Shown here piece by piece: positions 27,476 through 31,723 of a DNA stretch of 64,000 nucleotides (position 1 is the stretch's first letter; each line of letters opens with the position of its first letter). The translations under genes and the position numbers were made by a program. A model generated the notes under the pieces. The model saw only the letters and a list, made by a program, of their open reading frames with translations. It made no database searches and was not told the origin of the DNA. Origin of the DNA: Nitrospina sp. LS_NOB (GTDB lineage: Bacteria; Nitrospinota; Nitrospinia; Nitrospinales; VA-1); contig LFLA01000007.1 of assembly GCA_001542995.1 (NCBI GenBank), forward strand, positions 1-64,000. The letters are read 5' to 3'.

Positions 27476-27760
27476 ATGGATACCACTGAAATTATCAATA
27501 ATAACCTTAAAGAAAGAATCGCTGCCAAACATGTGGAGGTCATCGATGAGAGCCACCTTCATCGTGGTCACAAAGCCGCTGGAGGCGGGGGTCATTATTC
27601 CATCGTTGTTGTTTCACCCCAATTCGAAAACCTCAATGTCATGGAACGAGTCAGGCTGGTCCACAAAGCGCTCGATCAGGAAATGACAGGCACTCCAAAA
27701 CTCATCCATGCGCTGCAGGTCAAGACCTTTGATACCACACAATGGACTGATAAGGGCTGA
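27476..27760 (+). CDS. bolA: BolA-family protein
   Basis: The 94-residue protein matches BolA: VEVIDESHLHRGHK with the conserved histidine, GGGGHYSIVVVSPQFENLNVMERVRLVHKAL, and a C-terminal helix HALQVKTF. BolA proteins bind Fe-S clusters with monothiol glutaredoxins, and some act in iron signalling. No glutaredoxin gene adjoins it, though a zinc-ribbon protein precedes it. Convergent with the LRR gene, 7 bases apart. Confidence 0.9.
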   Translation: MDTTEIINNNLKERIAAKHVEVIDESHLHRGHKAAGGGGHYSIVVVSPQFENLNVMERVRLVHKALDQEMTGTPKLIHALQVKTFDTTQWTDKG

Positions 27761-27767
27761 AGCCGGG

Positions 27768-28247
27768 TTAATCCCGATAGACTTCCAGCTCTTCACAGTT
27801 TTTCAAGTTCTCTGATTCGGTGAGAGCTTTATAACCGATCTCGGTATACTGGTTTTTAAAGAGATCCAGTTTGACGTATTTCTTGCTCTGGGGCGAATTA
27901 GCAAAAGCCTGAGCTCCTGTATCTCCTACCACATTGCCGAACATAGTGACTATCTTCAATTTGGGTAAACTTTCCGAGTTTGCCAAGGCGATTGCTCCAT
28001 CGTCCCCAATATCATTGTGATTGATGTTGAGAAGTTCCAAGTTTTCCAAATGTGGGGATTCAGCAAGAGCCTCCAAGCCTTCATCCAAAATCTGGTTTCC
28101 TGGAACAATAAGTTGTTTCACGCTTTTTAATGCTTCTTTCGTGGCAAGCTCCATGCAACCACGGATGCCTATGTATTTATCACGAAGAAGAAGGATGGTT
28201 CCATCTTCCAGCAGGTTTTCTTTTATCAAGTCATCAATTTTACTCAT
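27768..28247 (-). CDS. Leucine-rich-repeat protein (RanGAP-like repeats)
   Basis: The 159-residue cytosolic protein has about four repeats of the type GLEALAESPHLENLELLNINHNDIGDDGAIAL, each with the LxxLxxxxNxI core. These are protein-interaction modules. The frame is open four codons upstream at 28259; I chose the second ATG at 28247 because tttggag lies 6 bases before it. It sits downstream of the bd-oxidase terminator and convergent with bolA. Confidence 0.75.
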   Translation of the reverse strand: MSKIDDLIKENLLEDGTILLLRDKYIGIRGCMELATKEALKSVKQLIVPGNQILDEGLEALAESPHLENLELLNINHNDIGDDGAIALANSESLPKLKIVTMFGNVVGDTGAQAFANSPQSKKYVKLDLFKNQYTEIGYKALTESENLKNCEELEVYRD

Positions 28248-28320
28248 TGCAATCTCCAAAGAATCACGAACTGTAACAATACAGTTATTCTAGCAAACCT
28301 GCACTGGGTTTGTCGAATAG

Positions 28321-28360
28321 GCAAAAATAAAGCCGACCTCATCAAACGAGATCGGCTTTA
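28321..28360 (-). terminator. Rho-independent terminator of the bd-like operon
   Basis: An 8-bp stem aaagccga/tcggcttt (28329-28359) with a further ctc/gag pairing is followed on the minus strand by a T-rich tail (ttatttttgc, 28328-28319). It lies 17 bases beyond the stop of the diheme cytochrome gene. Confidence 0.8.
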
Positions 28361-28375
28361 TGATTATAAATTTTT

Positions 28376-29635
28376 TTAGAGCAATGGGTCGAGGAACAGT
28401 CCTTTGGTTTTCCAGCTTTCGATTTCTTCTTTGGTAGGAACGGGAGGCACAGGCCGTTTGGCGGTGCGTTTGTCCAGAGGATCGTGGAATGTCCGGGCAT
28501 AGGCCTCAGCCTTCCAAAGATAAAGATGCGGGAAAATCATACCCCAAGCAGCCATGGGTGTTTCGGGAATACCACGGGTAACCCGGCGATACCAAAGGGC
28601 ATCCGGCCAGTCTTTTAAAAGCTTATCCGTATGGTCCCCTTCGATTTTTGTGGTATCAGGATTATTTTCATTTCTGAAATCGAGAGCTCCGGTCATCATG
28701 GGGATGCCATCCTTGCCGTGACAGACAGCGCAGAGGAGCCCTTCTGTTTGCGGATGAGTCCCTTCGAACACCAGCTTACCCTCGGCAATGGCATCTTTAT
28801 CGTCCCACCAGGTCCATTGATTGGGGAATTTGCCTTCAACCGGCATATGGGTCGGGTCCCGCAGGGTTTTTAAAAAAGAGATCAGGGCGGACAACTCGTC
28901 TTCACTTAAGTCATCGCCATAATAAGTCGGCATGGCTTTTTTGGATTTTTTGTCCTCAAAACCTGGAGCTTGGTTTCTTCGAGGATTGAGGATCTGATCT
29001 TTAATATAATCCTCGGTATAAAGGCCGATCTGTTTGGTACCCAGGTTGGGACCACGATCTGAGTTGCCTTCCCAGAATACTTTATGGCAGTTGAAGCATT
29101 TATTATTTTCGAACACTTCGCGTCCCGCGGCGATAACCTCGGGACCTGCTAGTCCTGCTAATTTAACGGGAGGCTTGTTGAGTTTTGCAAGTTCAATTTC
29201 CGGATCAAATTGGGGTAGCTGCGCTGTCACTCCGATAAATATACCGGAGGCAAGGGCGTAGGTAGCCAGAATCCGTTTGATCCAGTCAAAATGCGATTTT
29301 TCCAGCTTGAGAGTTTTCCAGTCCAGAAGCGTGAAGAAAGCAAAACCCACAAAGGCGAAGGCAACAAACTCTATCTGCCACCAGACGGGAAAATTGAATT
29401 TGCCTGCCAAGACCCAAATGATTCCTGCTAATACTGCGATGACAGGAAGCTTAAACCGGATATTTTGGAAAAGTGTTTTCTCCTCCACTTTTTTGGGTTT
29501 GATTTTGAGAAGCAAAGCATAAGTTACCATCACTGCGAACCCGGCACCGGCCCCTATAATCCCAAAAGTGCCGTATAGGGCGAACAGACCACTTAACCCG
29601 GCAATAACGCCAATAATGATTATGTCAATTTTCAT
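28376..29635 (-). CDS. Membrane diheme cytochrome c, partner of the bd-like oxidase
   Basis: The 419-residue protein has four N-terminal membrane helices (about 4-24, 25-44, 64-80, 84-104 with a further one near 127-143) and a large periplasmic part with two haem sites, CFNCH and CAVCH, each in a mono-haem cytochrome c domain (FENNKCFNCHKVFW and GLLCAVCHGKDG). The axial methionines are probably in KAMPTYYGDDLSEDEL and PETPMAAWG. It probably passes electrons from periplasmic carriers to the neighbouring bd-like protein, 24 bases upstream on the same strand. Terminator follows. The exact partner and direction of flow are inferred. Confidence 0.8.
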   Translation of the reverse strand: MKIDIIIIGVIAGLSGLFALYGTFGIIGAGAGFAVMVTYALLLKIKPKKVEEKTLFQNIRFKLPVIAVLAGIIWVLAGKFNFPVWWQIEFVAFAFVGFAFFTLLDWKTLKLEKSHFDWIKRILATYALASGIFIGVTAQLPQFDPEIELAKLNKPPVKLAGLAGPEVIAAGREVFENNKCFNCHKVFWEGNSDRGPNLGTKQIGLYTEDYIKDQILNPRRNQAPGFEDKKSKKAMPTYYGDDLSEDELSALISFLKTLRDPTHMPVEGKFPNQWTWWDDKDAIAEGKLVFEGTHPQTEGLLCAVCHGKDGIPMMTGALDFRNENNPDTTKIEGDHTDKLLKDWPDALWYRRVTRGIPETPMAAWGMIFPHLYLWKAEAYARTFHDPLDKRTAKRPVPPVPTKEEIESWKTKGLFLDPLL

Positions 29636-29659
29636 TATTCATTCTGCTCCTGAAAAATC

Positions 29660-31723
29660 TTATTCTGCCATTTGCGGTGATGCCTGCGTTGGCTCGATTT
29701 CTTTCTTCTTAGTTTTTGGATATTTGATTCCAATCCAGATGATGGCTGTCATCAGGATAAAAAAGAGCCAGACAATCATTGTAACGTGAAAGCCCGACTC
29801 AGCCAGGCTCGGTGCAAATTTTTCCGGGGTTACATCCTTGAACACTTTGTAAATATGCCAATTCATCCGCGACAGTTCCCGAATGGTCCCCATCCAGCTC
29901 ATCAGCCAGATGTCGGAGAATCCGAGGAAAATAAGAACGTAAGGTCCGAGCGGATTGATCTTGCCATAATGCACTTTTCCGGTTTTGGTGGCGATAGTAT
30001 AGAAAATATAGTTGATGAAAGTGACGGTCACCAAACAGAACGCCGCCGTATTCTTGGAAACCATCAAAGCCAGGAAGGCTAAATTATCCGGCAAAACCAT
30101 ATTTGGATCCATGCCAGGTTCAGGGAGCATAGTGGCGAAAAACCGTCTGGGAGTGAACCAGATTGTGGCGGAAATAACAATCAACACAAATCCAAACTTC
30201 ATGGCCGGAAAAAATCTCTCAGCGTTTTCAATACGCTTCATACTAACCCACATATAAATATTACTGGCGCTGAACATGGTTCCTACCAAAAGCCCTTGCA
30301 CCAACATGAACATGGATTCTCGGTCGGACATGATGTACATACCAATGGTGGCGTCATATCGGTAAATTTCGGCGACAAAAATGTAACCCATTGCCGGCAG
30401 GGGAATCATGATGGCAACGCCGATGAGGTTGCCGATATAACCGACCCAGTCATAATATTCCCGCTCTTCTTTTTTATCCGACCACAGGTACATATATGCA
30501 CCGATGATACAAACCATATAACCGCCAAAGGTTCCGTTGCCCACTAGCCGGTGATAGTTCAGGGGCATCCAAATCGAAGTGGTAATTTTATCCCACTCGC
30601 TCATAGTGAGCAGATCAGCAAGAGGTTTTGTCGGGGCCTGCATAAAGGTTGCAGGTCCATCCAAGGCCATCAGAAGTGTGAGACCAAAGACATTCAGCAT
30701 TATGCCCGTAACAATATGCCGTCCCTTTTTATTGGCCTTGTTGAGTGGGTCCCATGAGTAGACATAGATGTACATGATCACCGTTTCCAAAATAAACAGG
30801 GTGGGGTAGGCCACCATGAAAAGCATGGGAAACGAGGATATCAGATAGGTGATGAAGTCTTTATAGGCCACCAGCATGACAAAGAGGAAGAGACCTCCCG
30901 TCAGCGCGGTAAAACTGTAACAAATGCCAATTACCTTAGTGATCTCATGCGCCAGACGCTCAAATTTAAAATCTGCCTGGGCAAACATGATACCGTTGGA
31001 GAGCAAGCCGCCGACGGCTCCATTAATCAAAGCAAGAATAATTGCGGAAACTTCGTAATGCTCGACCGGTGTCAGTGGCATGGCGATCAGGGTTCCAAAC
31101 ACTGCTCCGACAAAGGCGGATGCCCGGATATTCATCAAACGGTGGAAATAATTCAGGAAACTGACTATTAGAGCCCCGAACGCGCAGGCCCATAGGCCAT
31201 ACAAGACACCGTGATGGATCCCGATTATGATTTCGCCGGTGATTCCTATGACAACGCCTATAAGAACCGCTAAAAACACGTTTGAGAGGATAATCGCTTT
31301 ACGAACCCCCTGTGTCCGTCGGGCGCCCATAACCTCCATGATGACCACGAACATGGGGCACCCTAGAATGAATGAGGCGAATAGTATATGAAGTTGAGCC
31401 GCCGCCCAGGTAAACTTGCGGTTACTCATGCCCAGGAACGAGAATTCTTCAAACTCGTGGTCTGCGGCCGGTCCGATATCTGTTAAGTATGAGAGGTCTT
31501 CTTCCTCAGCTTCTCCTTCTTCATCTTCGTCTTCTTCGTCCTCATCTTCTTCTTCGTCATCTTGGGCGTATGCAAGAGTCTGAAAACTCAGATTCGTAAA
31601 AATGGAGTTAGAAGAAGCAGGAAGGAAAGGACTTAAATGTCCCAACATATAAATAAAAAGCAGGCAGAGAAGGGTTTTAAAAAAAGTGTTTTTCAAAGGA
31701 CTTTGAGATTGTTTCATCATCAA
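29660..31723 (-). CDS. Cytochrome bd oxidase subunit I-like membrane protein
   Basis: The 687-residue protein has a signal peptide (cleavage near AYA-Q at 54), an unusual acidic stretch (about 55-76, mostly D and E), and then about 14 membrane helices. H112 in AQLHILFASF is placed like the haem b ligand of CydA helix 1. Later segments MPLNYHRLVGNGTFGGY and WMGTIRELSRMNWH resemble CydA-type quinol and haem sites. The length exceeds CydA by about 150 residues and no CydB gene adjoins it; instead it is paired with a membrane diheme cytochrome c. Such bd-like oxidases are known in nitrite oxidisers. Oxygen reduction and electron donor are inferred. Confidence 0.72.
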   Translation of the reverse strand: MMMKQSQSPLKNTFFKTLLCLLFIYMLGHLSPFLPASSNSIFTNLSFQTLAYAQDDEEEDEDEEDEDEEGEAEEEDLSYLTDIGPAADHEFEEFSFLGMSNRKFTWAAAQLHILFASFILGCPMFVVIMEVMGARRTQGVRKAIILSNVFLAVLIGVVIGITGEIIIGIHHGVLYGLWACAFGALIVSFLNYFHRLMNIRASAFVGAVFGTLIAMPLTPVEHYEVSAIILALINGAVGGLLSNGIMFAQADFKFERLAHEITKVIGICYSFTALTGGLFLFVMLVAYKDFITYLISSFPMLFMVAYPTLFILETVIMYIYVYSWDPLNKANKKGRHIVTGIMLNVFGLTLLMALDGPATFMQAPTKPLADLLTMSEWDKITTSIWMPLNYHRLVGNGTFGGYMVCIIGAYMYLWSDKKEEREYYDWVGYIGNLIGVAIMIPLPAMGYIFVAEIYRYDATIGMYIMSDRESMFMLVQGLLVGTMFSASNIYMWVSMKRIENAERFFPAMKFGFVLIVISATIWFTPRRFFATMLPEPGMDPNMVLPDNLAFLALMVSKNTAAFCLVTVTFINYIFYTIATKTGKVHYGKINPLGPYVLIFLGFSDIWLMSWMGTIRELSRMNWHIYKVFKDVTPEKFAPSLAESGFHVTMIVWLFFILMTAIIWIGIKYPKTKKKEIEPTQASPQMAE

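Follow-up and report, generated by a model that had tools for sequence, protein, structure and literature searches.

The window, as we call the whole 64,000-nucleotide stretch analysed here, comprises positions 1-64000 of contig C26 in a 2.65 Mb genome (G000, 98.8% complete) whose close relatives are assemblies named Nitrospina and Nitrospinaceae. A preliminary description had placed two open reading frames on its reverse strand, for a bd-like oxidase subunit and a diheme cytochrome c, and both are present at those coordinates and on that strand. We refer to the products as P0001 and P0002.

29660..31723, (-): P0001, bd-like (CydA-related) membrane protein, 687 aa as listed
28376..29635, (-): P0002, membrane diheme cytochrome c, 419 aa, two CxxCH sites
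28327..28361, (-): terminator-like hairpin, 16 pairs then TTTTT, directly behind the P0002 gene

The listed start of P0001 is a TTG codon followed by two ATG codons (at 31720 and 31717), so the real protein is probably 685-686 residues long. The position of the hairpin suggests that P0001 and P0002 form a two-gene unit. Directly downstream of the hairpin we observed a 163-residue leucine-rich-repeat open reading frame (window 27768-28259, -) and, beyond it, a BolA-like gene (window 27476-27760, +).

The bd-like protein, its inserted domain and its cytochrome partner

P0001 has an export-like, acidic N-terminus, a CydA-type core and, between the first two core helices, an inserted domain. The positions that we compared with Escherichia coli CydA are included below.

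31562..31723, (-): signal-like hydrophobic N-terminus, residues 1-54, ending AYAQ, from the sequence; helix 10-29 in the model
31496..31561, (-): acidic patch D55-E76, from the sequence; acidic in relatives of the same order
31388..31390, (-): H112, at CydA H19 (high-spin haem ligand); 36/36 bd-like proteins
30977..31315, (-): inserted domain, residues 137-249, four predicted helices (138-167, 172-192, 199-217 and 225-246)
30785..30787, (-): E313, at CydA E107; 35/36 bd-like proteins
30716..30718, (-): H336, at CydA H126; 36/36 bd-like proteins
30551..30553, (-): H391, at CydA H186 (haem b558 ligand); 36/36 bd-like proteins
30062..30064, (-): M554, invariant (36/36 and 41/41); candidate counterpart of CydA M393, inferred from topology
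29855..29881, (-): R615-E616-L-S-R619-M-N-W622-H623, profile-aligned to CydA E445-Y-G-R-Q-P-W

P0001 scores 24-25.6 bits against the PF01654 profile, just short of the gathering cut-off of 26.2 bits. When the insertion was deleted in silico (approximately residues 137-249), the score doubled to 48.6 bits; it is therefore the 113-residue insertion that brings the protein under the Pfam cut-off. Orthologues score 30.7, 58.4 and 68.3 bits, and together with the restored score they bear out the CydA ancestry proposed in the preliminary description. A fold search with the AlphaFold model, which is poor (mean pLDDT 47.6) and cannot place haems, returned CydA as its top matches (Z 10.4-13.2 over the nine best rows). 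Searches of P0001 gave no match among PDB sequences and none to the haem-copper oxidase family PF00115.

The export-like N-terminus and acidic patch reported earlier are both there: the 60 residues preceding the first core helix contain 25 aspartate or glutamate residues and no lysine or arginine, and the stretch is acidic throughout the alignable relatives of P0001. In an orthologue outside Nitrospinales (G016, L097 6212-8137), a long acidic N-terminus occurs with no insertion, and the two features thus need not co-occur. Docking of the patch onto P0002 was considered and dropped, as charge gives it no support: the soluble part of P0002 is itself acidic (pI 5.7).

Alignment with orthologues from other classes of the phylum and with a paralogue on contig C5 placed the insertion, about 113 residues long, between helix 1 and helix 2. 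This membrane domain, which the preliminary description had missed, is confined to Nitrospinales proteins and absent elsewhere, and it is the best, moderately confident part of the otherwise poor model. In a 41-row alignment, every row has E164, H170, C180 and H194, and 97% of the rows have H171. Searched alone, the insertion had no match in Pfam; the matches listed by the phylum search included no stand-alone match to the segment, and we found no description of it in the literature on Nitrospina and Nitrospira bd-like oxidases. An assembly or gene-calling error might be invoked for these oddities, and the low PF01654 score, though nothing else, speaks for one; we regard it as refuted, at a probability close to nil, because the same insertion with its invariant residues recurs in the 41-row alignment across independent assemblies.

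The preliminary description held that haem and quinol-site segments are kept. The positions of H19, E107, H126 and H186 are conserved in 35 or 36 of the 36 bd-like proteins, but E99 is lost (alanine in P0001, and glutamate in none of the 36 bd-like rows). A profile comparison of the C-terminal halves aligned GRQPW of CydA with R619-M-N-W622 of P0001 (P 1.1e-5, all bd-like rows), and R615, R619 and H623 are invariant. E616, at the position of CydA E445, is glutamate in 35/41 and serine in 6/41 Nitrospinales, and for that reason we dropped it as a firm ligand. We likewise dropped a placement of E445 at R526 (W522+4; histidine in other types), since the profile puts the motif at R615-W622 (P ~1e-5). 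M554 is possibly the counterpart of CydA M393, and by inference both M554 and H623 are candidate ligands. With E99 lost, the M393 counterpart insecure and the E445 counterpart serine in 6/41, the active-site ligand set is only partly matched.

The quinol-site segments did not hold up. The profile alignment to canonical CydA ends at about residue 212 of the E. coli protein and does not reach the Q-loop; no quinol residue can be placed, and only a short loop lies between helices 6 and 7 of P0001. The absence of CydB, in contrast, stood: there is no CydB (PF02322) in the genome and none adjacent to a P0001-type gene in any relative, and the 5 relatives' genomes that carry CydB never have it nearby. 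P0001 thus shares with canonical CydAB a homologous first half and four key ligand or structural positions, but it has no CydB or Q-loop, has lost E99 and is not strict at E445. A reading of P0001 as a conventional subunit I of a quinol-oxidising cytochrome bd whose partner has diverged would agree with its CydA ancestry; the lack of a Q-loop match, the absence of CydB from genome and neighbourhood, the extra helices and a fully separate clade make this very improbable.

P0002 matches the earlier account of a two-haem cytochrome c anchored by several helices.

29216..29635, (-): N-terminal membrane part, residues 2-138, five predicted helices, from a low-confidence model (mean pLDDT 58.6)
29084..29098, (-): first haem c site, CFNCH (180-184), from the sequence
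28718..28732, (-): second haem c site, CAVCH (302-306), from the sequence

The sixth ligands are likely to be the invariant M235 at the first site and the nearly invariant M361 at the second; the AlphaFold model is too poor to place haems. Domain 1 scores 57 bits against Cytochrom_C and also hits CcoP, at a score far under the cut-off, and in this P0002 resembles CcoP-like and other membrane diheme cytochromes c. P0002 differs from these in its five predicted helices, in a second c domain that is unmatched and in its partner, which is a bd-like protein rather than CcoN.

Relatives, paralogues and gene neighbourhoods

In a tree of bd-like proteins, the P0001 type separated as one clade with a support of 100/100, spanning Nitrospinota and one genome of another phylum (G138). 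That this clade stands apart from the bd-like protein of the nitrite oxidoreductase (NXR) cluster known from the literature is new here. The genome also encodes a second bd-like protein, overlooked in the preliminary description: a 657-residue paralogue on contig C5, about 31% identical to P0001 over the core. It has the same conserved histidines and glutamate as P0001 but no insertion, exceeds the PF01654 cut-off (74.7 bits) and has different partner genes, namely two cytochrome c genes and a gene for an EB_dh-domain two-haem protein that follow it. This gene set resembles the published NXR-cluster bd-like set (PMC3578206, PMC8026999). Nothing useful came from scanning viral contigs or from searching plasmids for the C5 paralogue. 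Elsewhere, the other bd-like type was observed near NXR-like alpha and beta genes (G071, L105 1-3366 and 7429-9372) and, in G245 (L154 574-1620 and 4046-8298), after a beta-like gene and one for a 16-haem cytochrome.

The OR-N-type bd-like oxidases of Nitrospina and Nitrospira (putative CydAA'; PMC3578206, PMC8026999, PMC6606698, PMC10839748) are like P0001 in their CydA-type N-terminal half with H19, E107, H126 and H186, the lack of a quinol loop, extra helices, neighbouring c-type cytochromes and the absence of CydB, a likeness of features and not of placement in an OR-N1/OR-N2 tree. P0001 differs from them in its own 100/100 clade, away from the NXR-type cluster, and, in Nitrospinales, in the 113-residue insertion; it also carries R526 and P545 where other bd-like types have extra conserved histidines.

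OR-N1 and OR-N2 subunits have been proposed to pair in Nitrospinota (PMC10839748), and good-quality Nitrospinales genomes generally hold both paralogues, as would be expected if P0001 were half of a CydAA' heterodimer with the C5 paralogue and neither worked alone. Against this, P0001 and the C5 paralogue are encoded on separate contigs, and each gene is accompanied by cytochrome c genes of its own. Moreover, G138 (100% complete) has the P0001 type alone and several other genomes have the C5 type alone, so the two need not act together, and we consider an obligate heterodimer unlikely.

P0002-like genes lie behind P0001-like genes wherever the contig extends far enough, with few exceptions, and the adjacency persists outside Nitrospinales. 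Two Nitrospinales relatives (L073 7881-10385 and L074 3326-5897) carry tandem duplicates of the P0002-like gene behind the bd-like gene, and these copies are 59-67% identical to P0002. In G018, G071 and G138, all outside Nitrospinales, the P0001-type gene, together with P0002 if the contig is long enough, stands behind genes for a Tat-type Mo enzyme (PhsA/Fdh-like), a 4Fe4S protein and a monohaem cytochrome c, with DsrO/DsrP-like genes nearby in G018 and G138. In G075 the pair follows genes for both subunits of a type II DMSO reductase, the family to which NXR belongs; the alpha subunit scores 923 bits and the beta subunit 523 bits, above the cut-off. G016 is an exception and has no Mo-enzyme neighbours. 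From these operons, the pair looks like an electron-transfer module that is often used with periplasmic Mo enzymes, a link of which we found no description in the literature on Nitrospina and Nitrospira bd-like oxidases.

Oxidase inventory and the proposed route of electrons

No match to the haem-copper oxidase family PF00115 was found anywhere in the genome, an absence that the preliminary description had missed. A true NXR is present: a 1,175-residue open reading frame on contig C10 scores 1729 bits against NxrA of PDB 7b04 (7b04_B), and genes for the beta and gamma subunits lie behind it. We tallied oxidases by hand in 28 Nitrospinales genomes that are at least 90% complete. P0001 is present in 28/28, in two of them only as a short fragment. 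Full-length haem-copper oxidases were found in 5/28, as open reading frames of 933-949 residues like that for the fused cbb3 in N. gracilis, and CydB in 4/28; 21/28 have neither. In many Nitrospinales genomes we also observed partial, sub-cut-off PF00115 matches of 100-160 residues in open reading frames of 130-330 residues (for example, G035:C72:49699-50088 and G039:C1:816956-817327). Genomes of the other classes, and G138, have the pair alongside haem-copper oxidases.

The reading that we favour, at a probability of roughly 0.5, is that P0001 and P0002 together make up a membrane complex of the bd-like superfamily, coupled to cytochrome c, that passes electrons from NXR to the reduction of O2. 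Electrons from periplasmic NXR would arrive at the two haems c of P0002, perhaps carried by a soluble cytochrome c, and would move on to the CydA-type, haem-binding core of P0001, where O2 would most likely be reduced to water. We infer the direction of electron flow, O2 as the acceptor, docking at the acidic N-terminus and a role for the inserted domain. Coupling to cytochrome c is supported more firmly than O2 as the acceptor. A cytochrome c donor, rather than a quinol, fits because there is no Q-loop, a diheme cytochrome c is encoded next door, the pair occurs in Mo-enzyme operons of the outgroups and a monohaem cytochrome c is present at three of those loci. On this point the preliminary description was sound, but the idea is not new, as cytochrome c-coupled bd-like enzymes (OR-N, CydAA') have already been discussed for Nitrospina and Nitrospira (PMC3578206, PMC8026999, PMC6606698, PMC10839748), and OR-N CydA found by automated annotation is listed in PMC10839748. 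Reduction of O2 is favoured because these aerobes have no known alternatives and because the other bd-like cluster is reportedly shared with anammox bacteria, which are strict anaerobes (PMC3578206, PMC6606698). That leaves P0001 as the likelier oxidase, by an elimination that rests on literature about the C5-type paralogue. The loss of E99, the insecure counterpart of M393 and the serine in 6/41 at the E445 position count against P0001 as an O2 reductase.

Periplasmic Mo enzymes usually have quinone-reactive membrane partners, and the pair might be a cytochrome c:quinone oxidoreductase rather than an oxidase, with P0001 meeting the quinone pool at a new site, P0002 providing the link to Mo enzymes and the complex serving reverse electron transport in nitrite oxidisers. 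We treat this as a serious rival because the Mo-enzyme operons outside Nitrospinales occur in genomes that keep haem-copper oxidases (other classes and G138), an arrangement that would also fit quinone chemistry. The missing E99 and strict E445 point the same way, and such a role has been proposed for the NXR-cluster bd-like protein (PMC3578206). The known quinol site is absent, however, and 21/28 near-complete Nitrospinales would then need the C5-type paralogue or an unknown enzyme for O2; we hold quinone coupling to be possible, if doubtful. It is also possible that some unrecognised type of oxidase reduces O2 in these Nitrospinales. Within the favoured reading of a cytochrome c-coupled oxidase, a bolder version is that the four-helix insertion rebuilt the bd-type core into a cytochrome c oxidase in Nitrospinales, with E164, H170, H171 and H194 providing a cofactor site or a path for protons; nitrite respiration free of haem-copper oxidases would then run through a new, possibly energy-conserving, bd-derived enzyme. 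We offer this as speculation that is more probably wrong than right by a wide measure.

The electron route to O2 in Nitrospinae that lack haem-copper oxidases was left open in PMC8026999, and the enzyme behind their high O2 affinity was unidentified in PMC8115632. What is new here is the distinct clade, the Nitrospinales insertion, the presence of P0001 in all 28 genomes with 21 lacking the known oxidases, and the Mo-operon link outside Nitrospinales. Judged from its sequences, the pair is a candidate for the missing last respiratory step of a marine nitrite oxidiser. P0001 is universal in the near-complete Nitrospinales checked, its insertion hides it from the standard family model, and a cytochrome c is dedicated to it, so that open question becomes a two-gene hypothesis. 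Its association with operons of Mo enzymes elsewhere suggests in what way electron-transfer modules of this kind are reused.
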